This document shows positions 7,164 through 60,409 of a stretch of 64,000 nt of DNA, one piece after another. The stretch's first letter is position 1; each line of letters begins with the position of its first letter. The notes beneath the pieces were generated by a model, which was given only the letters and a program-made list of their open reading frames with translations, had not been told where the DNA came from and did not search any database. The translations under genes and the position numbers were made by a program. The DNA comes from Peptococcaceae bacterium. GTDB taxonomy: Bacteria > Bacillota > Desulfotomaculia > Desulfotomaculales > Desulfocucumaceae. The DNA lies in NCBI GenBank assembly GCA_023512435.1, contig JAILZP010000003.1, positions 62,001 through 126,000 of the forward strand, in the 5' to 3' direction.

Positions 7164-7164
7164 G

Positions 7165-16688: not shown

Positions 16689-16709
16689 ATTGCCGCCGCC
16701 AGTTCCGGG

Positions 16710-19323: not shown

Positions 19324-19324
19324 A

Positions 19325-44464: not shown

Positions 44465-44493
44465 TTGACATGATGTGGGCCCAGTGTTATTAT
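44465..44493 (+). promoter_or_regulatory. sigma-A promoter of the B12 operon
   Basis: TTGACA, a 17-nt spacer and TATTAT lie 19 nt before the first riboswitch. The rest of the 44192-44464 gap shows no gene. Confidence 0.8.
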
Positions 44494-44511
44494 GGGTTAA
44501 AATTGAAAATT

Positions 44512-44684
44512 CGGGACAAGTGATTCTACTTGTTAAAGTAGAACTTAAAAGGGAAGCCGGTGCGATTCCGGCGCGGTCCCGCCACTGTGAAGGGGAGCCC
44601 TTCTGCATGACGCCACTGGGGAGGCACATGCCGGGAAGGCGCAGAAGGGGCAATGAACCTGAGCCAGGAGACCTGCTTGTTCCG
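44512..44684 (+). ncRNA. cobalamin riboswitch 1
   Basis: A B12-box RNA. It has the G-C-C-G-G-T-G-C-G-A helix, the GCCACTGTGAAGGGG core and the GAGCCAGGAGACCTGC stretch. CGGGACAAG at the 5' end pairs with CTTGTTCCG at the 3' end (one G-U) as P1. It binds a cobalamin and lowers downstream expression. Confidence 0.93.
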
Positions 44685-44765
44685 GTCCTTACGGGCGTGC
44701 CCACGACGGATGGGAAAGAGGTCCCGGGCTTGATTCATATTCCGGGAAGCAAAGCCGGGTTTTAT

Positions 44766-44798
44766 CCCCCTGCGGACATGGGTGCGGGGGGTTTTTAA
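44766..44798 (+). terminator. terminator of riboswitch 1
   Basis: CCCCC-T-GC pairs with GC-G-GGGGG, followed by TTTTTAATTT. It is the likely expression platform of the first riboswitch. Confidence 0.8.
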
Positions 44799-44828
44799 TT
44801 TACGGGCCGGCCCGGACAATTTAATATT

Positions 44829-45000
44829 TATAAAACGGGTGCCTTATTTCAGGACGGGCTTAAAAGGGAAGCCGGTGCGATTCCGGCGCGGTCCCGCCAC
44901 TGTGAAGGGTAGAAGTCCCGCACTTTGTCACTGGACGACATTTCCGGGAAGACGCGGGGTGCTTCGATGATCCTGAGCCAGGAGACCTGCCCGTTTTATA
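44829..45000 (+). ncRNA. cobalamin riboswitch 2 (tandem copy)
   Basis: A second complete B12-box RNA. The core AAAAGGGAAGCCGGTGCG and GCCACTGTGAAGGG are nearly identical to copy 1, and GAGCCAGGAGACCTGC recurs exactly. P1 is a perfect 11-bp helix of TATAAAACGGG and its complement. The peripheral P-loop region differs from copy 1, so the pair is diverged and not a recent exact duplication. Confidence 0.93.
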
Positions 45001-45070
45001 CGAACCATTACCTACGGGCGATAGGGAGGGTTGATGTTTGTGTTGTTTGCACCCAGCTGCAAGGGATAGA

Positions 45071-45103
45071 ACCCCCGGCCTCCCGCAGGCCGGGGGTCTT
45101 TAG
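45071..45103 (+). terminator. terminator of riboswitch 2
   Basis: ACCCCCGGCCT and AGGCCGGGGGT form a perfect 11-bp stem with a 5-nt loop, followed by CTTTAGT. It lies just before the CbiZ gene. Confidence 0.85.
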
Positions 45104-45134
45104 TCGGCAATTTTATATGCGGGAGGAAGGTGCT

Positions 45135-45851
45135 TTGCCGGACAAACTTCTGGTTTTTGGAGGGCAGGTTCCCATCCACGGAATAAGATGCTGTGTCTAC
45201 CGCCATTCGACGTTTGCCGTTTCGTCGGAGAGGCCGCTCAACGTGGTCAGTTCCGCCGTGTTGGGAGGGAATTTGAGGGAGGCCGAACACATAATCAATC
45301 ACTCCGTGGACGAGGGATACAACGGCAGCGATCCAGAGGAGGATCTCAAGCAGGTGGCGCTGCGTCTGGGTTTAAGGGGCAACGTTGTAGGAATGATGAC
45401 GGCTGTACGCGTTAAGCACACCGTGTTAAGACAGGGGAGGCAAAAAGACCTTTTGGTGGCCGCCTTTTGTACGGTGGGCACCGGCAACCCGGGGGTGGCA
45501 GGGTTGCCGGCCGGGAAGGTGCAGCAACGGTACAAGCCGGGCACCATCAACATTATTTTGCTGATTGACGGGAATTTGACCGGCGCCGCCATGGTGAACG
45601 CCGTGATAACGGCCACCGAAGCAAAAACCAGGGCTTTGTTCAAGGCAAGAATCAGCCTGCCAGGAGGTGAGCCGGTTACAGGCACCACCACTGACGCCAT
45701 TGTTGTGGCCTGCACGGGCAGGGGGGATCCCCTGCGCTACGCCGGGACGGCCACAAGCCTTGGGTATTTGATAGGAAAAACCGTTTACAGTGCTGTTTTG
45801 CGCGGAATCGAGGGGTATTTGTCAAGGCATGGCGGCGGGGGACAGGGGTGA
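45135..45851 (+). CDS. cbiZ: adenosylcobinamide amidohydrolase CbiZ
   Basis: A 238-residue CbiZ-family protein. Visible features are S-S-A-V-L-G-G-N, V-G-M-M-T-A-V, F-C-T-V-G-T-G-N-P, I-N-I-I-L-L-I-D-G-N-L-T and the C-terminal G-T-T-T-D-A-I-V-V-A. CbiZ removes the lower-ligand loop of imported corrinoids so that the cell can rebuild its own cobamide. TTG at 45135 is preferred, with GGGAGGAAGG upstream; the ATG at 45117 precedes that site. It is the first gene after the tandem riboswitches, placing salvage and remodelling at the head of a B12 uptake operon. Confidence 0.88.
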   Translation: MPDKLLVFGGQVPIHGIRCCVYRHSTFAVSSERPLNVVSSAVLGGNLREAEHIINHSVDEGYNGSDPEEDLKQVALRLGLRGNVVGMMTAVRVKHTVLRQGRQKDLLVAAFCTVGTGNPGVAGLPAGKVQQRYKPGTINIILLIDGNLTGAAMVNAVITATEAKTRALFKARISLPGGEPVTGTTTDAIVVACTGRGDPLRYAGTATSLGYLIGKTVYSAVLRGIEGYLSRHGGGGQG

Positions 45852-45936
45852 AGGGCCATCGCTGTCCATCCAATCAATTCGCCACACGCGCAGGATGCTT
45901 CAGGGCGGGCATGGATCCAAAAACGCCGGGATCGAG

Positions 45937-48516
45937 GTGTTTAAACTTAAAATGGGCAGACATGGAATTAATTTTCGCTATCTGGCGATTATGCTGGCAT
46001 TATGCCTTCTCACCGGACTGGCGGCTCCGTTCGGACTGTCCGGCGGGGCTGCGGCCGCGGATCAAACGCCGGCGTATTCAGCCGCAGAGATGGCCGGCAA
46101 AGCCGTTGACTTTATCAAGCAGAAGTACAGGGCCGGGGAGAAAGCGGACGGTTACGCCGTCTTCGTGCTGACCCTGGCCGGCGAGGACCTGTCGGCGCCG
46201 GAATGGGTCTATGGCGGCAAGACCCTGAAGGATTCGGTGCTGGATTCCGTTTATGCAACATTAAGCGATCCGTCTTCCGCCGGGACGAAGGACGTAGCCC
46301 TCCAACTGCTGGCGGCAAGCCGGTGGGCCGGCGGGGATCAGGCCGACCAGCTGGCGGCCATCCTGGCGGGGCGGCAGAAGGATAACGGCGCCTTTGACGA
46401 CAACGTCTATGTTGATATGCCGGCCTATGAGGCGCTGGGCAGGGCCGGGCGGATCAGCGTGATCAACGCCGTATACGCCCGGGGCTATATTCTGGGCAGC
46501 CAGTGCAACACGGCCGGGGACAATTACGGATCCTGGGGCGGCACATGGGCCGGGGTGTTTTACCCTGACTTTATGACCACGGCCCAGGCTGTCCGGGCGC
46601 TCACGTACCTGCCCGGAGCCGGCGGCGATGAGGCTGTCCAGGCGGCCGTGGCCAAGGGCCTTGCCTACCTGAAAGGCTTGCAGCAGGCGGACGGCGGCGT
46701 CTATTCCGCCTGGGACGACCCGGCCGTGGACAACTCCGAGTTAATCCGCACCCTGAACAGGCTGGGTGTGGATCCCGCTTCCGCCGCCTGGAAAAACTCC
46801 GCGGGCCTGACCCCGGCGGACTACCTGCTTAACAAGAGCATGAACCAGGACGGGAGTTTCGGTTCTGTCGGAAACGTCTTCTGCGCCGCCGAGGTGCTGG
46901 ACGCGCTTCTGACGGTGAACGGGCAGGGCGGCCCCGGTGGAGGCGGCCAGCCGCCGGCGGAGGAAGACCGGTGCAGTGTCGGCGTGGCGGTGGTCGGCCA
47001 AAGCGGGGATCTGCTTTTCGGTCCGGACAGCGTCACGGTGAGCAAGTCAGGCAGGTGGGGACTCACGGCCCTGGGGGCGCTCCACGCCACGGGACTGCCG
47101 TACGAGGAGGACGGCGGTTTTGTCAGGAGCATAGCCGGGCAGGCCAACAGGGGGATGAACGGCTGGATGTACAAGGTTAACGATACGGTGCCCGCGGTGG
47201 CGGCGTCGTCCAAACCGGTGGGCGGGGGAGACCGGGTGATCTGGTGGTACAGCAAGGATATGAATTTCTCAGGCCCCACCTGGGACAGCCTTCTTAAGCC
47301 GAATGTTTCCGTTCAGCCGGATCCGCAGACGCCGGCCGGCCCCAAGGAGCAGATCGGGCTGCTCCCCGCCGCCCTGCGGGCTTCGGACGGTGCCCTGGCG
47401 GAGCTGGAAAAAATCGTCCGGCTTAGCCCCAATGAAATGGAAGCAATGTTGGGCACCCCGGATGAACAGTCCGGGGCCGTGGCCGTGGCCGTGGCAGGCA
47501 GCTTACGGCCTCCGGACCTGGCCGCCATTGCCGCTTTGAAAAAGGAGCTGGACCAAAATGCGGTGGACCTGGTTAAAAAGGTGGCGGCCGGTTCGGGGGG
47601 CGCTCTCACGGACGCGGGGGCCGAGGTTGCCCTGGTCATTCCGGCCGGGGCGCTTGGCCGTGACGTGGAAATAACCGTTAAAGAGACGGCTGCCGGCAGC
47701 GGCGCCGGGACCACGGCACCGCCCGGTTTCCGCCTGGTGTCCGCCGTGTACGACTTTGGGCCGGACGGGACTTCTTTTGCCCTGCCGGCTACCCTGATCA
47801 TAAAGGTGGCCGTCCCGCCCCTGGTCAGGCCGGAAAATCTGGCCCTGGCCCGGTACGATAAACCCACCGGCAAGTGGATGACCATCCCGGCGGTGGTGGA
47901 TGCGGACAGGGGATTGATCCTGGCCATGGTCCGGCACTTCAGCCATTACGCAGTATTCGCCGGGGAGCCTGTGAAACCCTTTGCCGACGTTACCGCTGAT
48001 TCTTTCGGCTGGGCGAAGGAACCCGTGGAGAAGCTGGCCGGGGCCGGGATTGTCGCCGGAGTGGACGGAACGCATTTTGAGCCGGCCCGGGCGGTGACCA
48101 GGGCGGAATTCGCCGCGTTGCTGGTCAGGGCGCTGGGCCTGCAGGCGCAGCCCGGCGCCGCCCCTCCCTTCAACGATGTACGCCCCGGCGACTGGCATTC
48201 CGGGGCGGTTAGCGCGGCCCACGCCGCCGGGCTGATCGCGGGCTGCGGTGACGGCACTTTCCGCCCGGACAGCGCCGTCACCAGGGAGGAAGCGGCGGTT
48301 ATGCTGGCAAGGGCCATGAAACTTCAAGTCGCGGAACAGAAACTGCCTTTCGCCGACGGGGACAGGGTTGCCTCCTGGGCCAGGGCCGGCGTTGCGGCCG
48401 TGGCGGCCCAGGGACTGATCAGGGGTTTCCCGGACGGCTCCTTCCGGCCGGATGCCGCGGCCAGCCGGGCCCAGTGCGCGGTGACGGTTTACCGGATGCT
48501 GGCAGGCGAGAATTAA
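45937..48516 (+). CDS. SLH-anchored transcobalamin/intrinsic factor-like surface protein
   Basis: About 859 residues. A signal peptide (hydrophobic A-I-M-L-A-L-C-L-L, cleavage near A-A-A-A) precedes an alpha/alpha-barrel domain of prenyltransferase/terpenoid-cyclase-like repeats (about 45-335, with L-K-G-L-Q-Q-A-D-G-G-V and D-Y-L-L-N-K-S-M-N-Q-D-G-S-F). A DUF4430 domain follows (about 345-445, with G-W-M-Y-K-V-N and V-I-W-W-Y-S), then a linker with a ZU5-like beta segment (V-I-P-A-G-A-L), and three SLH domains from about 680. Helical barrel plus DUF4430 is the order of animal intrinsic factor and transcobalamin, where B12 lies between the two. SLH domains bind cell-wall polymer. The gene is B12-riboswitch controlled beside an ECF transporter, so it probably captures cobalamin at the surface. 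The start (GTG 45937 or ATG 45952) is uncertain. Confidence 0.85.
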   Translation: MFKLKMGRHGINFRYLAIMLALCLLTGLAAPFGLSGGAAAADQTPAYSAAEMAGKAVDFIKQKYRAGEKADGYAVFVLTLAGEDLSAPEWVYGGKTLKDSVLDSVYATLSDPSSAGTKDVALQLLAASRWAGGDQADQLAAILAGRQKDNGAFDDNVYVDMPAYEALGRAGRISVINAVYARGYILGSQCNTAGDNYGSWGGTWAGVFYPDFMTTAQAVRALTYLPGAGGDEAVQAAVAKGLAYLKGLQQADGGVYSAWDDPAVDNSELIRTLNRLGVDPASAAWKNSAGLTPADYLLNKSMNQDGSFGSVGNVFCAAEVLDALLTVNGQGGPGGGGQPPAEEDRCSVGVAVVGQSGDLLFGPDSVTVSKSGRWGLTALGALHATGLPYEEDGGFVRSIAGQANRGMNGWMYKVNDTVPAVAASSKPVGGGDRVIWWYSKDMNFSGPTWDSLLKPNVSVQPDPQTPAGPKEQIGLLPAALRASDGALAELEKIVRLSPNEMEAMLGTPDEQSGAVAVAVAGSLRPPDLAAIAALKKELDQNAVDLVKKVAAGSGGALTDAGAEVALVIPAGALGRDVEITVKETAAGSGAGTTAPPGFRLVSAVYDFGPDGTSFALPATLIIKVAVPPLVRPENLALARYDKPTGKWMTIPAVVDADRGLILAMVRHFSHYAVFAGEPVKPFADVTADSFGWAKEPVEKLAGAGIVAGVDGTHFEPARAVTRAEFAALLVRALGLQAQPGAAPPFNDVRPGDWHSGAVSAAHAAGLIAGCGDGTFRPDSAVTREEAAVMLARAMKLQVAEQKLPFADGDRVASWARAGVAAVAAQGLIRGFPDGSFRPDAAASRAQCAVTVYRMLAGEN

Positions 48517-48583
48517 AGGGCGGCCCGCGCTGCCGGAAAAAGGCGCGTGTTTCCCGGTTGCCCCCGGGCGGGGAGTGAGCTTT

Positions 48584-49306
48584 TTGAAGAGGAAATTAAT
48601 CTATGTTGTGTTGTTTTTGATAGTGACAGCCAGCATAATGGGACCGGCCATTTACGCCGGTAGAATGTCCGGCCTGAAACAGGCGGCGGATCGTCCGGCG
48701 GGCGGCGAAGCGGCCGGCCCGGCGGCAGGGGGGCGGGCATCCACTTACAGTGCGGCCGAAAACGGAGTCACGCCTGACCGGTCCGCCGCGCCGCGGGCGG
48801 ATCACAGCCCTTCGGCCGGGAACACGGCCGGCCGGAGGGATGACCCGGCCGGCGCCGCCGGACAGGGCGGCGTCCAGCCGGCACGGGGGCCGGCGGCCGG
48901 ACCGCCCGGCGGCGCGGAGGAGGGCGGGTGCACAGTCGGCATCGCCGTGGTGGGCATGAACGGAGAGCTGCTGTACGGGCCGGGGAACGTTGCCCTGGCC
49001 GGGAAGAACACGTGGGGAGTCACGGCGCTGGGCGCGCTGGACGCCACCGGCCTGCCCTATACCGTGTCCGCCCGCTGGCCGGGGTTTGTCGAGGCCGTTG
49101 CCGGACAGCGCAACAAGGGGCAGGCGGGGTGGATGTTCAAGGTGAACAATGAAGTCCCGCTGGTTGCCGCCGGTCAAAAAACGGTTAATCCCGGGGACAA
49201 AGTGATCTGGTGGTACAGTAAAAGCATGGGTGACTCCGTGCCGGACTGGGACGGCCTGGTCGGGCAAAGAGGAGGAGTCAACAGCGCTGACGGCGGCAGC
49301 CGGTAG
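48584..49306 (+). CDS. membrane-tethered DUF4430 protein
   Basis: About 240 residues. An N-terminal hydrophobic helix (Y-V-V-L-F-L-I-V-T-A-S-I) is followed by about 80 residues of Gly/Ala/Pro/Arg-rich linker and one DUF4430 domain (G-I-A-V-V-G-M-N-G-E-L-L-Y to V-I-W-W-Y-S-K-S-M), closely similar to the domain in the upstream gene. The helical barrel is missing. It may sit on the membrane and pass cobalamin from the surface protein to the ECF transporter. TTG at 48584 has GGGGAG upstream; GTG at 48575 lies too near. Confidence 0.8.
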   Translation: MKRKLIYVVLFLIVTASIMGPAIYAGRMSGLKQAADRPAGGEAAGPAAGGRASTYSAAENGVTPDRSAAPRADHSPSAGNTAGRRDDPAGAAGQGGVQPARGPAAGPPGGAEEGGCTVGIAVVGMNGELLYGPGNVALAGKNTWGVTALGALDATGLPYTVSARWPGFVEAVAGQRNKGQAGWMFKVNNEVPLVAAGQKTVNPGDKVIWWYSKSMGDSVPDWDGLVGQRGGVNSADGGSR

Positions 49307-49329
49307 CTGTTTTCAGGAGGTGGCGGCCG

Positions 49330-50259
49330 TTGCCGGATAAGCTTTTTTACCGGGAAAAGGGGTTGTTCCTGCAGAGCCTGCATCCCCTGGCGGCTTTTGT
49401 ATACCTGGGCACGCTGCTGGTGCTGGCGCTGGCCTTTGCCAACCCGCTTTATTTGCTTGGGATCCTGCTGGTTGTGGCGCTGGCCGTCCGGGAGGCGGAC
49501 GGCCTGGAGGCGTGGGAAGGTTACCTGAAAATCGCCCTGTTCATGATGGTGCCGGTCATGATCATCAACCCGCTGGTGGTTCACGCCGGAAAAACCGTTC
49601 TCTGGGAAGGTCCCCGTATTCCGGTTTTCGGCCGGCTGACCGTCTCCCTGGAGGCCGTTTGCTACGGGGCCGCCATGAGCGTCAGGCTGCTGGACATAAT
49701 CAGCGTGTTCTGCCTTTACAACCTGATTGTGCACCCGGATAGGGCCTTAAACCTCTTTTCCCGCTTTGCCGGCAGGTCCGTGCTGGTGGTGTCCCTGGCC
49801 GCCAGGATGTTTCCGGTCATGGTCAGGGAACTGGAGAGAATCCGGGGCGTGCAGCAGATGCGCGGGGTCGATTTCAACAGCGGATCGGCCCGGGAGAGGA
49901 TCAAAAAATACTCCTCTTTAATCAACATACTGCTTTTATCCTCCCTGGAGGGCTCCCTGGAGATCGCCGAGTCCATGCAGGCAAGGGCCTACGGCAGCGG
50001 TCCCCGCACCTGCTACAGCCGGAACCCGTGGCGGCCGCGGGATGCGCTGTGCCTTTCGGCCAGCGCCTGCGCGCTTGTTGCGGGCATTTGGGGACTGCTG
50101 AACGGTTTCGGCGGCTACACTTTTTACCCGCAGCTGGACTGTTTGATCAGCGGCCCGGGAACAGTGGCGGTGCTGCTGATTGTGCTTTTCAGTTTATCCG
50201 TTCCGGTGATGGCCGGTTGGGGGTGGCGGCGCTGTCATTATTTAAAATCGAAAATTTGA
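49330..50259 (+). CDS. ecfT: ECF transporter T component
   Basis: A 309-residue EcfT with hydrophobic helices at both ends and a long cytoplasmic coupling region. Its two coupling motifs are M-R-G-V-D and A-R-A-Y-G-S-G. It joins the ATPases to the substrate-binding S protein. The start is TTG at 49330 with GGAGGTGG upstream. It overlaps the next gene by 37 nt. The gene neighbours point to cobalamin as substrate. Confidence 0.9.
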   Translation: MPDKLFYREKGLFLQSLHPLAAFVYLGTLLVLALAFANPLYLLGILLVVALAVREADGLEAWEGYLKIALFMMVPVMIINPLVVHAGKTVLWEGPRIPVFGRLTVSLEAVCYGAAMSVRLLDIISVFCLYNLIVHPDRALNLFSRFAGRSVLVVSLAARMFPVMVRELERIRGVQQMRGVDFNSGSARERIKKYSSLINILLLSSLEGSLEIAESMQARAYGSGPRTCYSRNPWRPRDALCLSASACALVAGIWGLLNGFGGYTFYPQLDCLISGPGTVAVLLIVLFSLSVPVMAGWGWRRCHYLKSKI

Positions 50260-51926
50260 CTTATTGCTATCCGGATGCTGAAAAACCGGCCTTAAACGGG
50301 ATCAACCTGGGCATAGAGGAAGGGGAGTTTGTCCTGGTGGCCGGTGAATCCGGATCGGGCAAGTCTTCCCTGGCGCGGGTGCTGGCGGGGCTGATCCCGG
50401 ATTTTTACGGGGGCCGGTTTGGCGGCAGGGTTTACTTCCAGGGGCGGGAGATGCGCGGCATCGACCGGCGCAAACTGGCCCGGCAGGTGGGCATGGTCTT
50501 CCAGGACCCGGAAAAGCAGCTGGTGATGACCGGCGTGGAGGCCGAGATCGCCTTCGGCCTGGAGAACCTGGGGCTGCCCCGGAAGGAGATGTTCCGCCGG
50601 GTGGCCGAGGTGATCAGTTTCCTGGGGCTTGCTGAATTAAGGCAGGAGTTTACCGCCGGCCTGTCGGGGGGACAGAAACAGAAGCTGGTCCTGGCCGCCG
50701 TCCTGGCCATGCAGCCGCGGGTGCTGATCCTGGACGAACCCACGTCGCAGCTGGACCCGGTGGCCGCGGAGGAGTTCCTCAATCTGGTAAAGCGGCTGAA
50801 CGAAGAGATGGGCTTTACCGTCGTGTTGATCGAGCAGAGGCTGGAAAGGTGCTTTCACCTGGCCGACCGGGTGGTGGTCATGGAAGGCGGGCGGGTGGCG
50901 CAGGACGGCACCCCGGAACAGGCCGCCCGCTGGGCGGCCGGAATGGGGGCGCCCCTGGTTCCTTCCGTGGCCAGGTTTTTTTCGGCGCTGGGATTCCCCT
51001 CCGTGCCGGTAACTGTTAAGGACGGCAGAAGGCAATTGAGGGAATATCTCAGCGGGCGGCCCGTTTCCGGGGGGCCGGACCCCCGGAAGGAGCCGGGTTC
51101 CCGCTTGAAAGGCCGTACTCCCCTGGTGGAGGTAAAAAATTTATGGTTCACTTATCCCAACGGCAGGGAGGCGCTGCGGGACGTAAACCTGCAGGTCGGC
51201 GCCGGGGAATTTGTGGCCATCCTGGGGGAGAACGGCGCAGGCAAATCCACTTTGTTGAAAAATATGGCGGGACTTTTACGGCCGGGGCGCGGCAGGGTGA
51301 TTTTAAAGGGCCGCGACCTGGGCAAATGCAAGGGCGGCTGTCCCGGCGGCCAGGTGGCCTATCTTTCCCAGAACCCCAACGACTACCTCTTTCAGGACAC
51401 CGTGGAGGGCGAACTGCTGTTTACCCTGAACAATTTCGGCTTGAAGGATGACGGCATCGTTGACGAACTGCTGGAAAAACTGCAATTATCCCGCCGCCGC
51501 CTGGCAAACCCCCGGGATTTGAGCAGCGGGGAGAGGCAGCGGGCGGCCCTGGCCTCTGTGCTGGTGACCAGGCCGGACCTGCTGGTGCTGGACGAGCCGA
51601 CCCGGGGACTGGATTATCGCCTCAAGGCCGGACTGGGCGGTTTTCTGGCCGGGCAGGCCGCGGCGGGGGCGGGGGTGGTGCTGGTTACCCACGACGTGGA
51701 GTTTGCCGCCGAATACGCCTCGCGGGTGATCATGATGTTTTCCGGCCGGATTGTCAGCGACGGCGCCAGGCATGAAACCCTGGGACAGTCGGTTTTTTAC
51801 TCCACCCAGATCGGCAAGCTGTGCAGGGGCTTCTGCGACGGCATCCTGACCTTTGACGAGGCCGTGGAGAGGATCGGTCCGCTGCTTTCAGGCGAAACAG
51901 CGGTCCGGGCCGGCGCGTTGAAATGA
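50223..51926 (+). CDS. ECF transporter ATPase, two ABC domains fused (EcfA-EcfA')
   Basis: About 567 residues carrying two complete ATP-binding cassettes. The first has Walker A G-E-S-G-S-G-K-S-S, signature L-S-G-G-Q-K-Q-K and Walker B V-L-I-L-D-E-P-T-S-Q-L-D. The second has G-E-N-G-A-G-K-S-T, L-S-S-G-E-R-Q-R and L-L-V-L-D-E-P-T-R-G-L-D. In group II ECF systems the two ATPases are often separate genes. GTG at 50223 is the first start giving a normal N-terminus, overlapping ecfT. It powers the dedicated transporter. Confidence 0.92.
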   Translation: MAALSLFKIENLTYCYPDAEKPALNGINLGIEEGEFVLVAGESGSGKSSLARVLAGLIPDFYGGRFGGRVYFQGREMRGIDRRKLARQVGMVFQDPEKQLVMTGVEAEIAFGLENLGLPRKEMFRRVAEVISFLGLAELRQEFTAGLSGGQKQKLVLAAVLAMQPRVLILDEPTSQLDPVAAEEFLNLVKRLNEEMGFTVVLIEQRLERCFHLADRVVVMEGGRVAQDGTPEQAARWAAGMGAPLVPSVARFFSALGFPSVPVTVKDGRRQLREYLSGRPVSGGPDPRKEPGSRLKGRTPLVEVKNLWFTYPNGREALRDVNLQVGAGEFVAILGENGAGKSTLLKNMAGLLRPGRGRVILKGRDLGKCKGGCPGGQVAYLSQNPNDYLFQDTVEGELLFTLNNFGLKDDGIVDELLEKLQLSRRRLANPRDLSSGERQRAALASVLVTRPDLLVLDEPTRGLDYRLKAGLGGFLAGQAAAGAGVVLVTHDVEFAAEYASRVIMMFSGRIVSDGARHETLGQSVFYSTQIGKLCRGFCDGILTFDEAVERIGPLLSGETAVRAGALK

Positions 51927-51935
51927 GGTACGGGT

Positions 51936-52679
51936 ATGGGCGAAGGCATTCCCGGCGAAAGGCCGAAAACAGCGCGGAAAATTCTTTTTCCCCTTTTTCT
52001 GATCGTTATCCCGGGGCTGCTTTATGCCGGCATAAAGCAGGACAATTTCCTGGCCGGGCAGGGTTGGGGGCTGCTTTCGGCGGAAATGGTGCTGGCGGCC
52101 CTGGCCTTGTTCTACTGGGGATTTGAGCGGGGCGGGGCCTCCAGCCGGGAAGCAGCCTTTATCGCCGTGCTGGGGGCCGCCGCCGCCGCGGGGCGCATCC
52201 CCTTCGCCGCGCTGCCCAACGTGCAGCCCACCACGTTTTTGGTGATTGTTTCAGGCTTTGTGTTCGGCCCCAGGGCCGGATTCATGGTTGGGTCCACAGC
52301 GGCCCTGGTTTCCAACTTTTTCCTGGGCCATGGTCCCTGGACGCCCTGGCAGATGTTCGCCTGGGGCCTGGCCGGAGCTTCGGCCGGTTTGATCAGAATG
52401 GTTTATCCCGGCATAGGGACATTGGGCATGTCGGCTTTCAACTTTATCTGGGGCTACCTTTTCGGCTGGATCATGAATCTGTGGTTTTGGACGTCCTTTA
52501 TCCAGCCGCTGAACTGGCAGTCCTTTCTGGCCTCATATGCGGCCAGTTTCTGGTTCGACACTTTCCACGCCGCCGGGAACGCCGCCTTTTACCTTGTCTT
52601 CGGGTCCAGTTTTACAAAGATTTTAACGCGCTTCCGGAGGAAGCTGAAGGTTAGGATTGTTGAAAACCGGGATTGTTGA
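51936..52679 (+). CDS. ECF transporter S component, probable cobalamin-specific (CbrT-like)
   Basis: A 247-residue membrane protein of about six helices. G-R-I-P-F-A-A-L-P-N-V-Q-P-T-T-F-L-V, G-F-V-F-G-P-R-A-G-F and F-L-G-H-G-P-W-T-P-W-Q-M form the conserved core of the S-component group assigned to cobalamin (CbrT) or related corrinoids. It binds the vitamin and is moved by EcfT and the ATPases. The ATG follows the fused ATPase gene by 9 nt. The tandem B12 riboswitches support the corrinoid assignment. Confidence 0.85.
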   Translation: MGEGIPGERPKTARKILFPLFLIVIPGLLYAGIKQDNFLAGQGWGLLSAEMVLAALALFYWGFERGGASSREAAFIAVLGAAAAAGRIPFAALPNVQPTTFLVIVSGFVFGPRAGFMVGSTAALVSNFFLGHGPWTPWQMFAWGLAGASAGLIRMVYPGIGTLGMSAFNFIWGYLFGWIMNLWFWTSFIQPLNWQSFLASYAASFWFDTFHAAGNAAFYLVFGSSFTKILTRFRRKLKVRIVENRDC

Positions 52680-52704
52680 CAAGGTCTCAGGAATGGATTA
52701 CCAT
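52676..52704 (+). promoter_or_regulatory. possible sigma-A promoter before the DUF2292 gene
   Basis: TTGACA, 17 nt, TACCAT overlaps the stop of the S component. The predicted start leaves under 10 nt of leader, so it may not be used for the next gene. Confidence 0.3.
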
Positions 52705-52719
52705 AAAGGGTGTTGGGCA

Positions 52720-52863
52720 TTGAGCAAAAATAAGCCGCTGACCACCAGAGAAGCGAACCTGATTCGGATTATCCGCACCACCAGATACGGCGAAATAAAA
52801 ATAATCATCCAGGAAGGGCAGCCCGTGAGGGTTGAGGAAATTAAAAAATCCATCAAGCTTTAG
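52720..52863 (+). CDS. small DUF2292 (YezD-like) protein
   Basis: A 47-residue protein. The pattern L-I-R-I-I-R-T-T-R-Y-G-E-I-K-I-I-I-Q-E-G-Q-P-V-R-V-E-E-I-K-K is that of DUF2292/YezD, a tiny Firmicutes protein with one helix and a beta-hairpin and no assigned function. TTG at 52720 has AAAGGGTG upstream; an ATG at 52693 would add nine residues. It ends the B12 operon just before a strong terminator. Confidence 0.7.
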   Translation: MSKNKPLTTREANLIRIIRTTRYGEIKIIIQEGQPVRVEEIKKSIKL

Positions 52864-52888
52864 GACTAATGCTGACCGGAAAACCGGA

Positions 52889-52921
52889 GGCACTATCTTC
52901 GAGGGTAGTGCCTTTTTTTTT
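52889..52921 (+). terminator. strong rho-independent terminator
   Basis: GGCACTA and TAGTGCC (extendable by wobble pairs) form a stem followed by nine T residues. It ends the B12 operon 15 nt before the next gene. Confidence 0.92.
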
Positions 52922-52936: not shown

Positions 52937-54253
52937 TTGAAAAAAATTGCCCTGTTTAAAATCGTGGTGACTGTCCTGGCGTTAAGTATGATCTCGTTTT
53001 CCGCCAGCGGCTGCTTTCCCGGAAACAGCGGCCAAATGCGGGTGATCACCAACCAGGACGGCAAAGCCGGAAGCGGAACGGCAGTTCAAAACAATGAACA
53101 GCCCGGGTACGGGGTGGGCCGGGATCAGGGCGGCCCCGGGGCAGAGGAAGGCAAGAACCGGGGGAGCGGCGGAACCGGGGTGAACGGTGGCACCACTGCG
53201 GGCGGCGGCAATGGAGAAACCGGCGGCGGCAGCCTGGACGGCGGGGAAAGTGAAGAAAAGGCAACCGGCGGAGTGGCCTACAAGGGCTACAAGGGGCCGG
53301 TGCAGGGGGAAGTCAGGTATAAGGAGGGCACCCCGGCCGGAGAGAATGCCAGGGGATTCAAGGCCTCGGGAGACATTGAAAGCCCCTACAAGGTGGATTT
53401 GATTGTGACCAGGGACTTCGGCCACCAGAAGATGTTTGCCAGGACCGTGGGGCTGGTCAGGGACGAGGTGGGAATGGAAGTAATGTTCAGAAACCTGGAC
53501 ATCCAGACCGCTTACGGGGGCGGATTCGTCAACGCCATCAACGGTCTGGAGTCCGGATACACCTTTTTTACCGGCCAGGACAGGAAAAAGCATGACTGGT
53601 TCTACTGGGTAAACGGCATCCTTTCCCCGGTGGGTGTGGCGGAGTACCGCCCCCAGCCCGGGGATGTCATCTGGTGGGACTATCACGACTGGAGCATGAC
53701 CATGTTTATACCGGCGGTGATCGGTTCCTATCCCCAGCCCTTTAAAAGCGGCTTCTGGGGAAAAAACCCAGGCACCGTGGTGATGCACACCCCGGAATAC
53801 AGGGAGGACGCCATGAGACTTAAACGGAGCCTGGAGGCCGAAGGGGTGAAGCAGGTGGACACGGCGGCCTTTGATCCGGAAGTGCTCAAGGTGCCGAAAA
53901 AATACTACATTGTGCTGGGCCTGTGGGACAAGCTGACGGCAGAATGCGGCCTCTTGAGGGAAATAAACACCAGGAACAAGCTTGTGGGGGTTTATGTCAA
54001 ATTCGCGGACGGGGAATTAAAGGCCCTTGATTTTAAAGGCAATGTCGTCTCTTCCCACAGCCGGGCGGGGGCCGTTTACGCTTACGGCGCCTTCACCGGC
54101 AGTTTGAATCCCGTGTGGGTGGTTACGGCAACGGACGACGAGGGCTTGAGGCTGGCCCTGAACACCCTAATCAACAGCCCCGGGGACATAAAGGAACATT
54201 TTGGGGCGGTGGTTACAAAGGACGGGGTGATCAATGTCCCATATGTTAATTAA
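52937..54253 (+). CDS. DUF4430 lipoprotein
   Basis: A 438-residue lipoprotein with lipobox S-A-S-G-C at about residue 26, then a Gly-rich linker of about 70 residues. One DUF4430 domain (about 150-255) contains H-D-W-F-Y-W-V-N-G-I-L and V-I-W-W-D-Y-H-D-W. The C-terminal 180 residues form an unrecognised alpha/beta domain (Y-Y-I-V-L-G-L-W-D-K). This is the third DUF4430 protein in 9 kb and may also bind a corrinoid or hand it on. TTG at 52937 follows AGGAGTGAT. It heads the MoxR/vWA operon; the stop overlaps the next gene by 20 nt. Confidence 0.8.
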   Translation: MKKIALFKIVVTVLALSMISFSASGCFPGNSGQMRVITNQDGKAGSGTAVQNNEQPGYGVGRDQGGPGAEEGKNRGSGGTGVNGGTTAGGGNGETGGGSLDGGESEEKATGGVAYKGYKGPVQGEVRYKEGTPAGENARGFKASGDIESPYKVDLIVTRDFGHQKMFARTVGLVRDEVGMEVMFRNLDIQTAYGGGFVNAINGLESGYTFFTGQDRKKHDWFYWVNGILSPVGVAEYRPQPGDVIWWDYHDWSMTMFIPAVIGSYPQPFKSGFWGKNPGTVVMHTPEYREDAMRLKRSLEAEGVKQVDTAAFDPEVLKVPKKYYIVLGLWDKLTAECGLLREINTRNKLVGVYVKFADGELKALDFKGNVVSSHSRAGAVYAYGAFTGSLNPVWVVTATDDEGLRLALNTLINSPGDIKEHFGAVVTKDGVINVPYVN

Positions 54254-56303
54254 CAAGTGCGGTGATATATTTAAAAACCGCTGCCGGGCGCTGGCCGTGC
54301 TGGCCGTCTGCCTGGGGTTCCTGGCCTGGGGCGGCACCGCCCGGGCTTCCGGGGTGGAGATTACCATTAAGTCGGGATTTGACGGCAGGTGCAAGCTGGG
54401 CGGGCTGAATCCGGTGGTGGTGGTCATTGAGGCGGTGGGCGAAGGCCGCAAGGGGGTTTTAAAATTAAAGGCCGGTGAAAGGACCTACAGTGTCCCGGCG
54501 GAGCTGGAAAGAGGCGCCAGGAAGGCCATTCGCTTTTCCATACCCTTTTTCGGGGCGGAAGAAAGGATAGAGGCGGCCTTTGAAGGGGAAGGCGGGGATC
54601 AGGTCAAGGCCGGCCACACCCCGGTGATTCTTCCTGAAAGGACCATTTTTTTCGGCGTGCTCAGCGATTCACCCAAGTCCCTTTACTTCCTCAATGATTT
54701 GGATACCTCCGGGCTGGGCGGGGGCCGGGCCGCCGTGGTGGAGCTGGACAGGCAAATTCCGTACAGCCTTGATGAACTGGAGAATATCAATTTTATCATT
54801 GTCGAGGATTTCAGGACCGGGGAACTGGCCGGCAGCAAAGCCAGGCTGCTGGAGGACTGGGTGGCCCTGGGAAACTGCCTGCTGGCGGGGGCCGGAGACA
54901 GTGCGCACAAAAATCTCACCGGCCTGCTGGCCGGTTTAAGGGAGCCTTTGCGCCATGGTGACGGGGTAATGGTGCCGGTGGCTGGGGGTATCGCAGGAAG
55001 CACGCCGGAATCCCTCCGGGACGTTGTTTTAAAGCACGTTACTCCATACTCCCTGGCCATGGCGGTCAAGGGCAGCGGCCTGCAGCGGCGGGCCGCCGGG
55101 GCGGCGAAGATGGCCGGGGCGGCCGGGGGGGCGGTCAGGCCGGAGAGAAGCGGCCTGTACTTAATTTTTTCGCTGATTATACTGTATGTGCTGGCTGCCG
55201 GGGCGGCGGCCCTGGCCGGGAAGAGGCTGAAATGGGCCTTTGGCGCGGTGGTGGCTTTTTTTTGCCTGTTTTTCCTGGGCCTGTCCCTGCACGGCGGCAT
55301 TTTCAAGGCGGTGGCGGGGGGGGCCGGCGTACGGGTGCACGGGCCGGTCAGCCGCACCTACGCCCTGACCTGTGTATATCCTCACCGCGGGGACGGGGCC
55401 CGCATCAAGATTTCCTGCGCCTCCTTTGCGTCGGCGCAGGGCGCCTCCCCGGAGGCCGACGCCCTGTCCAGGGAGGTGTATTGCCCCGGCAGGACCGGGC
55501 ATTACATCCACAGTTCCTCCTATGAGCCCGGCGGCGCGAAGTGCATTGTCCTGACGGCGGGCGGGGACGGCGTGATCAGCGGGGAGATCATCAACCCTCT
55601 GCCGTATGACATGGAAAACTGCTTTATGATCATTGGCGACACCGTCATCCCCGTGGGGAAAATGGGAGGCAGGGAGAGATTGTCGGTAAAATACAGCCAG
55701 GACCATAACCTGAGGGGCGCCGGGGACTACAACTACCTTGACCTCCTGTACCGGGCCGCCGGCGTGAAGGATCAGCGCCGGCACCTGATTGACTACTATT
55801 TTTATCATGTGGACGATTACCGGCCCGGTGGAAGGCTGATCGGGTTCGCCCGGGAGTCGGCGGAGGTTGAGATAAACGGCGCCGGCCGGAGTTTCAGGCG
55901 CACCGTCATGAATGTATTCCCCATAGATATCCGGGCCGGGGACGGCAGCCTGAGCCTTCCCCCGGAGGTGGTTAGGCCGGTGGCTGACTGCGGCCCGGCT
56001 GAAGAGGGCGGGTCCTGGAGGGAGTACTCCGGCGGTCCGGGCGGGGAATTAAAGCTGTACTATGTGATGCCCCCGGGCCTGGAGCCCGCTGAGATAGCCA
56101 TCACCGGATCTCCCGGGGCGGGGGAAAACAGTGTGTCCGTATACAACCGGGCCGCCGGCAGGTGGGAGGCGCTCGGGCCGGAGATCCTGGCCGGCGAAAG
56201 ACTCCGGCCATACCTGTCCGCCGGCCCGCTGGCTCTCAGCGTCCGGAGCGGCGCCAGGGTATTGATTCCCCAGATGGCGGTGAAGGGGGTTGAACACCGG
56301 TGA
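54234..56303 (+). CDS. large exported membrane protein of MoxR/vWA cluster, function unknown
   Basis: A 689-residue protein. A signal peptide (L-A-V-L-A-V-C-L-G-F-L-A-W, A-R-A-S) is followed by an extracellular region of about 270 residues, including an Ig-like part and a GATase-like alpha/beta part (N-I-N-F-I-I-V-E-D-F). Two transmembrane helices near residues 305-360 follow (L-Y-L-I-F-S-L-I-I-L-Y-V-L and V-V-A-F-F-C-L-F-F-L), then a second large domain of about 320 residues. Proteins of this layout accompany MoxR-vWA operons; no enzyme motif was found. The ATG at 54234 has GGGGTGATC upstream and overlaps the lipoprotein gene. Confidence 0.7.
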   Translation: MSHMLINKCGDIFKNRCRALAVLAVCLGFLAWGGTARASGVEITIKSGFDGRCKLGGLNPVVVVIEAVGEGRKGVLKLKAGERTYSVPAELERGARKAIRFSIPFFGAEERIEAAFEGEGGDQVKAGHTPVILPERTIFFGVLSDSPKSLYFLNDLDTSGLGGGRAAVVELDRQIPYSLDELENINFIIVEDFRTGELAGSKARLLEDWVALGNCLLAGAGDSAHKNLTGLLAGLREPLRHGDGVMVPVAGGIAGSTPESLRDVVLKHVTPYSLAMAVKGSGLQRRAAGAAKMAGAAGGAVRPERSGLYLIFSLIILYVLAAGAAALAGKRLKWAFGAVVAFFCLFFLGLSLHGGIFKAVAGGAGVRVHGPVSRTYALTCVYPHRGDGARIKISCASFASAQGASPEADALSREVYCPGRTGHYIHSSSYEPGGAKCIVLTAGGDGVISGEIINPLPYDMENCFMIIGDTVIPVGKMGGRERLSVKYSQDHNLRGAGDYNYLDLLYRAAGVKDQRRHLIDYYFYHVDDYRPGGRLIGFARESAEVEINGAGRSFRRTVMNVFPIDIRAGDGSLSLPPEVVRPVADCGPAEEGGSWREYSGGPGGELKLYYVMPPGLEPAEIAITGSPGAGENSVSVYNRAAGRWEALGPEILAGERLRPYLSAGPLALSVRSGARVLIPQMAVKGVEHR

Positions 56304-57025
56304 ATGCGGCGGGAAATTTTCATACCGGCGGGGAAAACGGCGTCCTGGAGTCACTGTATGTTGCGGTGCTGTCCTTTATGCTGGCCGCATACATGATCCT
56401 GGTGGTGTCGCGGGAGGAGGGGTACGATCCCGGCCTGTACAGGAACGCCTATGTGTATTTTATGGTATTTGACCTGATACTGTTTTCCCTGTTTGTATCC
56501 TTCTGGGAAACAGGGGGGGCGGCCCAAGGAAAGGCGTACCTGCTGAGGGCTGCCGCCGGCGTCATCATCCTGGCGGCATCTCCGGCGCCGCTGATTCTTG
56601 CCATATTTCTGGCAGGCAGGATAAATCCCGCCAATTTTATGCTTCCCCTGATGTTGAAAGCTGTCTGGGGCCTGGCGGTGGTTTGCCTGAGAGACTTTTT
56701 GGAGGCTGTAAAACCGGGCTGGCGCTGGAACGGCTTCCTGACGGGATTTTTCATTTTTTCCGTGCTGGTGTTGAGCGGGCTGCTGGCGTTTTTTCTCACG
56801 GAATACCGGCAGGCGGTGATCACCACCCTTTACGACCGGGACATGCCAGGAGCACTTTTTCTCAATCCCCTGCTGTCCCTGGCCGGGCTTGTATACTGCC
56901 AGGCCGGGGGCGGCAGCCAGGCGGGCCTGGACCCATTTTATACCTGCCTGCTGTTCTGGGGGCTGGCGGCGGCGGCCCTGGGCACGGCGGCGGTGAAAAT
57001 CCCGGGTGGTGCCGGCCGTGGCTGA
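56300..57025 (+). CDS. polytopic membrane protein of MoxR/vWA cluster, function unknown
   Basis: A 241-residue protein with six to seven hydrophobic helices and short loops. The GTG start overlaps the previous stop by 4 nt, and the end overlaps the next gene. No family motif was recognised. It may resemble an ABC-permease-like partner, but the sequence does not show this clearly. The compact overlaps imply that it works with the MoxR/vWA proteins. Confidence 0.6.
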   Translation: MNAAGNFHTGGENGVLESLYVAVLSFMLAAYMILVVSREEGYDPGLYRNAYVYFMVFDLILFSLFVSFWETGGAAQGKAYLLRAAAGVIILAASPAPLILAIFLAGRINPANFMLPLMLKAVWGLAVVCLRDFLEAVKPGWRWNGFLTGFFIFSVLVLSGLLAFFLTEYRQAVITTLYDRDMPGALFLNPLLSLAGLVYCQAGGGSQAGLDPFYTCLLFWGLAAAALGTAAVKIPGGAGRG

Positions 57026-58595
57026 GACGAGGGCGGAGGCGGCGCTGAGAAAGTTGAGGAACAGGATCTGGCTGGGACACGTCCTGAACAGCCTTTCCTT
57101 CACCCTGCTGGCGTCAGCCGCAGGGGTGCTGCTGCTGGTGGCGGCTAGGCATGTCTTTGTTATACCGCACCTGACCGGCAAGGCCGCGGCACTGCTGGCG
57201 GTCCTGTGGACGGCGGGGGGGATCTGGGGGTTGGCCGGACGCCCTGGGATCAGACAGGCGGCCCTGGCGGGGGACCGGCTGGGTCTGCAGGATCGGCTTG
57301 CCACCTGCCTGGAGTACGGGAGCCGGGAAGGTGTCGTGATGGAGGCTTTCCGGGAGGAACTGGAGGATGTGCTCGCGGGATTCAGCCCGGTCCGGATGTA
57401 CCGGATCGATTTTCCCTGGAGAAGGGTGCTGGCCGCGGTGATCATCTTTGCTGCGGCGGCCTGCGTTTTCTGGCTGCCGTCCTCCCGGGCGGAGGAAGCG
57501 GCCTTGCGGGAGGAGGTAAACAGGGAGCTGAGGCTGGAGGCGGAAAATGTCGCGCTGATCAGGATCGGCCTGGAGAAAGCTGCGGGAGAGGAGGAGCCAG
57601 CCGGATCATTCAGGGAAAATGCCGCGGCCCGGCTGGAGGAATTGGAGAATAAGCTGGAACAGGGCTATGATTACAGGCAGGCCGCCCTCCAGGTGGCGGA
57701 CACCCTGCAGGCCCTCCACAGGCAGGGGCGGTGGCCGGACCCCGCCGGCATAAAGGGCCTGGCGGGAATATTCGCGGGCGCCGGGGAAAAAGCCGCCATA
57801 GCCGCCCGCTTCTTGCAGTCAGGAGACGCCGGCGCAGCCGCCCGGGCCATCGAGAGTATGACTTTTAACACTGATGAACGCAGGGTCCTGCTGGAAAATA
57901 CCAGCAGGCTTTTAGAGGACGGGAATCAGGCCGGAGCCTCCAGGCAGGTCCTGAAGGAATTTAAATCCGCCCTGGAGGAGGAGAGTCTTTCCGCCGGGGA
58001 TCTGTCGGAGGCGCTGAGTTCGGCTCTTTCCGGCAAAAAGGAGGTGGCGGGGCTGAAGGAGGCGGAAACGAAGCTTCAAAGCATTAAGGAAAGGCTGCTG
58101 GCCAGGAGCGGCAAAAGTTTTGACAATTCCGGCGGCGCAGGCGGCGATGAATCCCGGCGGGAAGGCGCGGCGGCCCCCTGGGGCGGGGAAAACGCCGGCC
58201 GGGAAACGGCATCGGCCCGGGGCGATTTTGGCAGCCAGTCCCGGCGGGATTCCGGCGCCTTGGGGGGAGGCGTTTCCGGCGGCGGAGAAAACGTGAAAGC
58301 GGGCCGGGAGGGCCAGGTGGCGAAAAGTGACACGCCGGTTTTCGCCCCCGCTGCGGATGCCGGATTGCTGGAGGTCAGGGGGGAATGGCAGGAGAACAGC
58401 GGCCAGGTGGGCGAAAGACGGTCGGACAGGGTGTTGGGCCTGGCGGGGGAAGCCGCCGGCTATGAGGCGCTGTACCGGGATTTTCAAAGGGAAGGCATGG
58501 CCTACCTGGACAGGTTTGAAATACCTCCCGGCAAGAGATCGCTGGTGCTGGAATACTTCAGGGGGCTGAGGGGAGATTACCGGGGTGAACAATGA
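57018..58595 (+). CDS. membrane-anchored coiled-coil protein with Gly/Arg-rich linker
   Basis: About 525 residues. Three hydrophobic helices lie in the first 150 residues, followed by a long Glu/Leu/Ala-rich coiled-coil region (about 160-350), a low-complexity Gly/Ser/Arg linker (about 360-430) and a short C-terminal helix. The layout recalls DUF4175-like proteins found with MoxR-vWA genes, an identification by layout only. GTG at 57018 has GGGTGGTG upstream; 57006 is an alternative. The end overlaps the MoxR gene by 11 nt. Confidence 0.6.
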   Translation: MAETRAEAALRKLRNRIWLGHVLNSLSFTLLASAAGVLLLVAARHVFVIPHLTGKAAALLAVLWTAGGIWGLAGRPGIRQAALAGDRLGLQDRLATCLEYGSREGVVMEAFREELEDVLAGFSPVRMYRIDFPWRRVLAAVIIFAAAACVFWLPSSRAEEAALREEVNRELRLEAENVALIRIGLEKAAGEEEPAGSFRENAAARLEELENKLEQGYDYRQAALQVADTLQALHRQGRWPDPAGIKGLAGIFAGAGEKAAIAARFLQSGDAGAAARAIESMTFNTDERRVLLENTSRLLEDGNQAGASRQVLKEFKSALEEESLSAGDLSEALSSALSGKKEVAGLKEAETKLQSIKERLLARSGKSFDNSGGAGGDESRREGAAAPWGGENAGRETASARGDFGSQSRRDSGALGGGVSGGGENVKAGREGQVAKSDTPVFAPAADAGLLEVRGEWQENSGQVGERRSDRVLGLAGEAAGYEALYRDFQREGMAYLDRFEIPPGKRSLVLEYFRGLRGDYRGEQ

Positions 58596-59562
58596 TATAC
58601 AGGCGGTGCGGAGTTTTAAGGATATTTTCGAGACCGTGACGGCCGAGGTGGAAAAGCAGGTGGTGGGGCAGAGAGGGGTTGTCAGACACGTCCTGACGGC
58701 AATCATCGCCGGGGGCAATGTTTTGTTGGAAGGGGCGCCGGGCTTGGGAAAGACCGTGCTGGTAAAGGCCTTCGCCAGGGTGCTGGACCTGCCCTTTTCC
58801 AGGATCCAGTTCACCCCGGACCTGATGCCCTCGGATATTACCGGCACGGTGATGGTGAACAGGACTGAACGGGGGCCGGAATTCACCTTCCAGCCCGGCC
58901 CCCTGTTCAGTTCCCTGGTGCTGGCGGACGAAATCAACAGGGCCACCCCCAAAACCCAGAGCGCCTTGTTGGAAGCAATGCAGGAAGGCGCCGTCACCGT
59001 GGGAGGGGTAACCTACAGGCTGCCGGAGCCGTTTTTCGTGCTGGCCACCCAGAACCCCATCGAGATGGAGGGAACCTACCGGCTGCCCGAGGCCCAGCTG
59101 GACAGGTTCATGTTCAAGCTGGACATACGGTTGCCCGGCGAGGGGGACATTCATAGAATTATCGACGTAACCTCTCTTGCCGGTGACGGGCCGCGGGTTG
59201 AAAAGCGGCTGTCCGGGGAGGACCTGCTGAACATGAAAGCCGTCGCCGCACAGGTTCCGGTGCCGTTCACGGCCAGGGAAAGGGCGGTTAGGATAATGCT
59301 GCACACCCACCCGGACAGGACGGCCGTACCGCTGGTGAAGGAATATGTCCGCTGCGGTGCCAGCCCCCGGGGGGTGCAGTCGCTGATTGCCTCGGCCCGG
59401 GTGCTGGCCCTGGCCCGGGGCAGGTTCAACGTGTCCGCCGGAGACATTGCGGAAATGGCGGCTCCCTGCCTGAGGCACAGGTTCTTCCTTAATTTCAGGG
59501 CCGCCGCCGACGGGGTGGACGCGGACGCCATTATCAGGGAAATTTTGAAAAAGGTGATCTGA
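58585..59562 (+). CDS. MoxR-family AAA+ ATPase
   Basis: A 325-residue MoxR ATPase. It has Walker A G-A-P-G-L-G-K-T, Walker B L-V-L-A-D-E-I-N-R-A-T-P-K, sensor 1 L-A-T-Q-N-P-I-E and the following G-T-Y-R-L-P-E-A-Q-L-D-R-F. MoxR proteins are chaperone-like and act with DUF58/vWA partners to assemble or activate protein complexes or insert metal or cofactor. GTG at 58585 overlaps the upstream gene with AGGGGAG before it. The DUF58 and vWA partners follow directly. Confidence 0.93.
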   Translation: MNNDIQAVRSFKDIFETVTAEVEKQVVGQRGVVRHVLTAIIAGGNVLLEGAPGLGKTVLVKAFARVLDLPFSRIQFTPDLMPSDITGTVMVNRTERGPEFTFQPGPLFSSLVLADEINRATPKTQSALLEAMQEGAVTVGGVTYRLPEPFFVLATQNPIEMEGTYRLPEAQLDRFMFKLDIRLPGEGDIHRIIDVTSLAGDGPRVEKRLSGEDLLNMKAVAAQVPVPFTARERAVRIMLHTHPDRTAVPLVKEYVRCGASPRGVQSLIASARVLALARGRFNVSAGDIAEMAAPCLRHRFFLNFRAAADGVDADAIIREILKKVI

Positions 59563-59605
59563 ACTGGACCGCTTTATACAGGAAATACAGAACATAGGCA
59601 GTATA

Positions 59606-60409
59606 ATGCCGCGAAAAAGGATTGCCAAGGGGGGCGGCGGGGTCCACCTGGGCGCCGGGCGGGGCGCCTCCCTGGACTTTTACGGCCACAGCCCCTATAC
59701 TCCCGGGGAGGATATAAGGAAAATCGACTGGAAGGCCTATGCCAGGACTGAAAACCTTTACGTAAAGGATTTCAGCGAGGAGAGGCAGGTCCTGGTCAGG
59801 GTTCTGCTGGACAGCAGCGCCTCCATGGATTTCGGAAGCCCGGGAAAGTGGGCGTTCGCCCTCAAGCTGTCCCTGGGGCTGGCCTGCCTGGCCTTGAGGC
59901 AGGGAGACAGGCTGTCCTTTTACACCGCCGGCCGGAGCCTGGAGGTATTAAAGGAAAGTGTGGCGGGCACGGGCCACTTTTACGATCTTATGAAGGCCGC
60001 GCCGTTGCTGAGGCCCGGGGGCGCCACGGCGCAGCAGGCCTTTACCGGCGCCGCGCCCCGGGGACCCGGAATAACCTTTATACTGTCCGATTTTTTCGGC
60101 CTGGATGCCGCCGTGGTGCTTGACCATTTCTGTTTGCCGGATCAGCAGGTGGCGGCCATCCAGGTGATCTCCCCCCAGGAACTGGACCCGCCCGCCGGAG
60201 AGGAGCTTAAACTGGTGGACGCAGAAACCGGAAGAATAAAAAGGATTCATTTCACCGCCGCAGCCAGGCGCAGATATGCGGAAAAGGCCGGGCTCTTCCT
60301 GGCGGCGACCAGGGAACGGTGCGTCCGGAGGGGAGCCTCGTACATATTGGCCATAACCGCCACGGACCCCGTCTGTGTTCTCAAGCAGGCGCTGGAGGTG
60401 GGCGAATGA
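59606..60409 (+). CDS. DUF58 protein (vWA-like MoxR partner)
   Basis: A 267-residue DUF58 protein. The family core Y-T-P-G-E-D-I-R-K-I-D-W-K-A-Y-A-R-T-E-N is complete, and L-L-D-S-S-A-S-M-D-F is a vWA-type metal site. The ATG at 59606 gives M-P-R-K-R. The family N-terminus suggests an earlier CTG at 59564, in frame and with AAGGTGAT upstream, adding L-D-R-F-I-Q-E-I. It overlaps the next gene by ATGA. It is the usual partner of MoxR. Confidence 0.88.
   Translation: MPRKRIAKGGGGVHLGAGRGASLDFYGHSPYTPGEDIRKIDWKAYARTENLYVKDFSEERQVLVRVLLDSSASMDFGSPGKWAFALKLSLGLACLALRQGDRLSFYTAGRSLEVLKESVAGTGHFYDLMKAAPLLRPGGATAQQAFTGAAPRGPGITFILSDFFGLDAAVVLDHFCLPDQQVAAIQVISPQELDPPAGEELKLVDAETGRIKRIHFTAAARRRYAEKAGLFLAATRERCVRRGASYILAITATDPVCVLKQALEVGE

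Follow-up and report, generated by a model that had tools for sequence, protein, structure and literature searches.

A tandem-riboswitch B12 operon with a predicted transcobalamin-type surface protein in a Peptococcaceae bacterium

Described systems and the parts of the operon

The superfamily SLBB (DUF4430) was named by Burroughs, Balaji, Iyer and Aravind in 2007, who described a toroid-SLBB fusion in Desulfotomaculum, noted a paralogous SLBB protein and CbiO/CbiQ genes in the same operon, and proposed, as predictions, that such proteins bind and scavenge B12 and were transferred to animals; the hosts were said to be usually without B12 synthesis genes (PMC1796856). The energy-coupling factor (ECF) transporter ECF-CbrT of Lactobacillus delbrueckii (PDB 6FNP) carries cobalamin and cobinamide, as shown by transport and binding assays (PMC5997447), and riboswitch operons of Dehalobacter are induced when corrinoid is lacking (PMC4285132). 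Here we describe an operon in a stretch of 64,000 nucleotides (the window) of contig JAILZP010000003.1 of a Peptococcaceae bacterium, which shares with the systems of 2007 a secreted toroid N-terminal to an SLBB domain, a second, paralogous extracellular SLBB protein, a CbiO-like ATPase and a CbiQ-like protein, all encoded in one operon. The core idea was thus already published as a prediction, and this operon is a further member of a kind that is apparently still untested; no later experimental test was found in openly licensed papers, subscription papers being outside the search. Riboswitch, CbiZ, SLH domain and S component are all absent from the text of the 2007 paper, and what is added here is riboswitch control, a CbrT-type component, SLH anchoring, CbiZ in some of the operons, evidence from predicted folds, a further DUF4430 protein that is a predicted lipoprotein, and a host that probably makes corrinoid. 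The best explanation of the locus, to which we give a probability of about 0.77, is that the operon encodes a system for capture, import and remodelling of cobamides (the B12 family), with a clamp of the transcobalamin/intrinsic factor type held by SLH domains.

The operon lies on the + strand and runs from a promoter-like site at 44465 through two cobalamin riboswitches and the genes for CbiZ, a toroid-DUF4430-SLH protein, an anchored DUF4430 protein, EcfT, a fused ECF-A/A', an S component and a DUF2292 protein to a strong intrinsic terminator at 52886-52915 (13-bp stem and T-run, z -3.85, 0 of 200 shuffles). The tandem-riboswitch B12 operon of the original prediction is confirmed as a real observation and every gene listed there was found, but the small DUF2292 gene that ends the operon (52720-52863, PF10055, 1.3e-6) had been omitted, and a third DUF4430 protein past the terminator fell outside its range. 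The promoter-like site (44465-44493) is a consensus match only, of the sigma-70 type with TTGACA and TATTAT spaced by 17 bases and TG preceding the -10 element, and agrees with the consensus in 11 of 12 positions, the best in the region.

Two full-length matches to the cobalamin riboswitch model RF00174 were obtained with Rfam cmscan upstream of CbiZ at 44501-44694 (118.7 bits) and 44820-45008 (134.2 bits), both far above the gathering score of 31.5. The host genome (3.18 Mb in 80 contigs, 88% complete) contains just eight cobalamin riboswitches, and since two of these precede this single operon the pair is not due to chance. Nor is the doubling peculiar to this genome, as at least two riboswitches occur near the operon in 8 of 21 sister loci (L054, L058, L059, L061, L062, L070, L072 and L073). 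Riboswitch 1 is followed on its 3′ side by an intrinsic-terminator-like hairpin with five T residues (44766-44791; z -1.8, modest) and riboswitch 2 by a GC-rich terminator-like hairpin with a weak U-tract (45072-45096; z -2.75). These hairpins, together with the induction of the Dehalobacter operons by corrinoid starvation, suggest OFF-switch behaviour, in which adenosylcobamide would turn the operon off through two successive transcription-terminating riboswitches and transcription would read through both hairpins when it is scarce. Operon-2 of Dehalobacter, which is strongly induced by corrinoid starvation, likewise has a cobalamin riboswitch and terminator governing transporter and CbiZ genes, but its transporters are of the FepBCD/BtuCDE type, and a term search of that text gave no mention of an S-layer or of intrinsic factor (PMC4285132).

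The S component (51936-52679, Pfam ECF_trnsprt 1e-7) had a sole meaningful sequence match among all PDB chains, 6fnp_A (E 4.2e-14 over 163 residues), and the S components of two sister loci, L056 and L073, likewise matched 6fnp (CbrT) alone. This likeness to CbrT, read from sequence homology, is the strongest single pointer to a cobalamin or cobinamide substrate. The ECF-T coupling protein of the CbiQ/EcfT family (49330-50259, PF02361, 6.9e-12) and the fused ECF-A/A' double ATPase (50223-51926, with a GTG start at 50223 as read from the sequence; TIGR04520/04521 above cut-off in two stretches, Pfam ABC 1e-60) complete a CbrT-type transporter with two ATPase domains, so that the ECF set originally proposed is borne out and its substrate component is now matched. 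It differs from ECF-CbrT of L. delbrueckii, with its homologous S component, in that the T and A/A' genes adjoin the S gene and are linked with extracellular binding proteins (PMC5997447). That EcfT resembles CbiQ, and that a solved Ruminococcus gnavus domain with the DUF4430 fold (PDB 3u7z) is named a putative metal binding protein, could speak for riboswitch-controlled uptake of cobalt or another cobalt complex; we consider this highly improbable, as the S component matches CbrT and no cobalt component, cobalt import in the host is served by a different, CbiM-type system that follows another riboswitch (L016), and partners of the BtuF/FecCD type accompany a related surface protein in L054.

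CbiZ, a predicted adenosylcobinamide amidohydrolase (45135-45851), was identified by PF01955 (2.4e-61) as proposed, and a single copy was found in the host genome. As read from the sequence its start is most likely the TTG at 45135, with GGGAGGAAGG upstream. The product of CbiZ is cobyric acid, the whole nucleotide-loop arm being removed; the original proposal that it strips the lower ligand is right in that the ligand goes, but the rest of the arm goes too.

Fold of the surface protein

The surface protein, encoded at 45952-48516, has 854 residues. Its signal peptide (read from the sequence) is followed by an alpha/alpha toroid (about 46048-46938), a DUF4430 domain (about 46960-47302; Pfam, 6.9e-13), a stretch resembling ZU5 and, at about 47977-48516, three SLH domains (PF00395 in three stretches, 1.6e-35 in all). 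The SLH domains match Sap S-layer chains, and with the signal peptide they mark an SLH-anchored wall protein. Whereas DUF4430 and the SLH domains are established by Pfam, the helical barrel originally proposed is clear solely from the predicted fold; Pfam gave a sub-threshold match to the squalene-cyclase-type family SQHop_cyclase_C (1.7e-4 with the full protein, 2.4e-5 with the domain alone), which does not establish a toroid.

Comparison with intrinsic factor and transcobalamin by fold prediction, as had been suggested, gave a consistent result. The AlphaFold2 model of the toroid-DUF4430 module had a mean local confidence (pLDDT) of 89.9 and a global score (pTM) of 0.69, and in a Foldseek search its 15 top PDB matches were all haptocorrin (4kki), transcobalamin (2bb5, 4zrp, 8ixt) or intrinsic factor (2pmv, 3kq4), with E from 1.3e-10 to 1.1e-7. 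Terpene cyclases ranked below these carriers, at E 3e-5 and worse, as did prenyltransferases. A second model, made from a relative in L079 (52% identical, with a deeper alignment; pLDDT 93.2, pTM 0.71), repeated the outcome, all of its 15 best matches being cobalamin carriers. Isolated transcobalamin beta domains (5no0, 5np4) were also among the fold matches, and the predicted arrangement of an alpha/alpha toroid followed by a beta-grasp domain is that of the transcobalamin/intrinsic factor family. The carriers were recovered by fold alone, as a PDB sequence search with the module returned none of them; a search of a viral fold library gave no match at E <= 0.001. In predicted fold the module thus agrees with animal intrinsic factor, transcobalamin and haptocorrin for each of the two domains and for the order in which they come, but it differs in its SLH anchor, which stands in place of an endocytic receptor, and in its inter-domain pose. 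As a separate observation, 3u7z shares its fold with DUF4430 and the transcobalamin beta domain, and its label may merit re-examination.

Several points weigh against a B12 clamp at the wall. Identity to the animal carriers is 12-16%. The domains match one by one, and over both together the root-mean-square deviation is 21-25 A, with template modelling (TM) scores of 0.37-0.47 against holo carriers. The toroid-DUF4430 linker is the main low-confidence stretch in both models (pLDDT <50), and the L079 prediction, which was aimed at docking the two domains, brought the pose no nearer to that of holo carriers. The toroid taken alone also resembles terpene cyclases and prenyltransferases, CbiZ lies inside the operon in a minority of relatives, and the host is apparently able to make corrinoid, so uptake is not strictly needed. 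No closed cavity can be made out in the models where barrel and DUF4430 face each other. A cavity of this kind could not be displayed by apo models whose linker is flexible, and its absence does not count as a failed test. The original proposal of an intrinsic-factor-like capture and import system at the surface is largely right, being supported by the fold, the CbrT match, riboswitch control and gene order.

The same linker and pose would fit a reading in which the operon imports corrinoid and the SLH protein is no clamp of the transcobalamin type, its domains acting separately, with DUF4430 gripping, for instance, corrinoid or the wall and the toroid a partner protein or polysaccharide. The resemblance of the toroids to enzymes, the solo toroid and solo DUF4430 proteins of sister operons, and the Ig-like (Big_2) insert of 80-110 residues that many relatives carry between the domains, where others have a short linker, are also in its favour. 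We regard it as distinctly unlikely, given that 49 distinct relatives have toroid and DUF4430 joined in the same order and that the lead of the carriers over every other toroid in the fold search stems from an ordered match to the two domains.

Conservation among relatives and a proposed mechanism

Of 113 genomes in the host's class, 48 have a match to the module. At 20 of these loci, most from different genera and examined closely, RF00174 was present in 19 (the exception being L071), and the order riboswitch, toroid-DUF4430-SLH, DUF4430, EcfT, EcfA and EcfS was kept in nearly all, as far as the stretches reach. When 84,980 species genomes were scanned, the module turned up at 70 loci, some of them in the same genomes as the 20; among the taxa are Moorella, Pelotomaculum, Desulfofundulus, Thermovorax, Thermosediminibacter and, with one record, Methanocalculus. 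SLH domains were present in 64 of the 70, EcfT in 54 and the S component in 45. A riboswitch was found in 54 of the 57 testable loci, in 37 by regular expression and, by Rfam, in 17 of the 20 regex-negative loci with enough DNA upstream; the expression had a sensitivity of 26/35 and no matches in shuffled DNA, hence the Rfam recheck, and the upstream DNA of the remaining 13 loci was too short to judge. The gene-order search suggested by the original prediction therefore ties the homologues to B12 riboswitches and to transporters.

The relatives vary in carrying one or two toroids ahead of DUF4430, and in a further secreted protein, made of a toroid and a Cu_amine_oxidN1 domain, whose gene is sited between those of DUF4430 and EcfT. 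In L054 BtuF-like, FecCD and ABC genes replace the ECF genes, and a BtuF-like protein is present in L133; such a swap of the transporter for one resembling BtuFCD, with the surface protein and its riboswitch retained, is independent evidence for corrinoid as the ligand. The second DUF4430 protein of the window (48575-49306, 243 residues, PF14478, 3.3e-14) has an N-terminal hydrophobic anchor and a long Gly/Ala/Pro-rich linker, in agreement with its proposed membrane tether; the anchor is common to most relatives, and a lipobox-like cysteine occurs in two. The third DUF4430 protein (52937-54253, + strand, PF14478, 1.8e-13), a predicted lipoprotein (SASGC), is the first of a further gene group, in which MoxR, DUF58 and BatA-type proteins are encoded. 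In many loci of the wide scan a lipoprotein of this type replaces the anchored DUF4430 protein just before EcfT; in L058 the related protein precedes EcfT, and in L065 one other gene stands between the two.

In the mechanism we infer, corrinoid scarcity would lead to synthesis of the secreted protein, which would be held in the wall by its SLH domains and would clamp corrinoid between toroid and DUF4430, a beta-grasp domain, in the fashion of transcobalamin and intrinsic factor. The corrinoid would then be passed, probably by way of the membrane-anchored DUF4430 protein on its long flexible linker, to the CbrT-type S component, and EcfT and EcfAA' would power ATP-driven import. CbiZ would turn the imported adenosylated corrinoid into adenosylcobyric acid, which CbiB, CobS and CobT of the host would rebuild into its preferred cobamide. 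A more elaborate relay from S-layer to membrane, in which external corrinoid would first be bound by the SLH-held toroid-DUF4430 protein and then handed to a membrane-bound "split intrinsic factor" that loads CbrT, is put forward only tentatively. The split factor would consist of the anchored DUF4430 protein plus, in many relatives, the separate secreted toroid protein. The relay would resemble BtuG/BtuB of Bacteroides, where a surface lipoprotein captures corrinoid and feeds a transporter (PMC6143338, PMC10404256); the proteins are unrelated, and the setting is an outer membrane there and a Gram-positive-type wall with SLH domains here.

Host corrinoid metabolism and neighbouring loci

CbiC, CbiJ, CbiG, three tetrapyrrole methylases and CbiD are clustered together in the host genome, which suggests that the host probably has its own corrinoid synthesis in addition to import; CbiB, CobQ, CobB/CbiA, CobS and CobT are also encoded. 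Other riboswitches of the host adjoin CbiM-type cobalt import, CobT, and a CobQ-CbiB-CobB/CbiA-CobS group. This equipment would suit a system of the same parts and another purpose, chiefly the recapture of the host's own leaked corrinoid or its shielding in the wall, and CbiC is found in 26 of the 48 class genomes with the module, this host and 25 others. Such a purpose is nevertheless unlikely, since CbiZ suggests processing of foreign corrinoid and CbiC is missing from 22 of 48 genomes with the module compared with 16 of 65 without it (present in 49 of these 65; Fisher p 0.026, kinship ignored). The module thus leans towards corrinoid non-producers yet is common in producers, and its frequency in the latter qualifies the 2007 statement on hosts without synthesis genes (PMC1796856).

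A second cluster of B12-carrier-like surface proteins was observed just downstream of the window (L013, G000:C73:126001-146000). Its proteins are a solo toroid (578-1723 of that stretch), a divergent DUF4430 protein (2540-3391), two PQQ-propeller proteins, the first with Ig (3468-7541) and the second with Big_2 and toroid (7558-10806), and a DUF4430/SLH protein (10878-14219). One cobalamin riboswitch (1946-2141) lies after the solo toroid gene, and another (14475-14674) follows the DUF4430/SLH gene and stands ahead of dipeptide/nickel-type ABC permease genes, riboswitch and permease genes together spanning 14475-17153. The opposite strand carries at 19144-19998 a gene whose product has a ferredoxin domain and weakly matches reductive dehalogenase (E 0.0035). 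In L015 a cobalamin riboswitch of 137 bits (6709-6895, - strand) lies about 400 bases ahead of an aldehyde:ferredoxin oxidoreductase gene (4402-6297, - strand), an unusual target for this riboswitch, followed by FeoB-like genes. Within the window, genes for a MoxR AAA ATPase, DUF58 and BatA-type proteins directly follow the third DUF4430 lipoprotein (54234-64000); these MoxR/DUF58/vWA genes were dropped as operon members, having matches in only two of the examined sister loci.

Little work has dealt with the collection of B12 through a thick wall by Gram-positive-type bacteria, and the case for a bacterial origin of intrinsic factor and transcobalamin in animals has so far been based on the sequence argument of 2007. 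The riboswitch, the CbrT transporter and the conserved gene order in relatives such as Moorella, Desulfofundulus and Thermosediminibacter provide defined proteins for testing both questions, in a system that occurs also in organisms apparently able to make corrinoid. If the relay is true, Gram-positive bacteria would have in it their equivalent of BtuG-BtuB, and it would be a living relative of the system thought to be ancestral to the animal B12 carriers.

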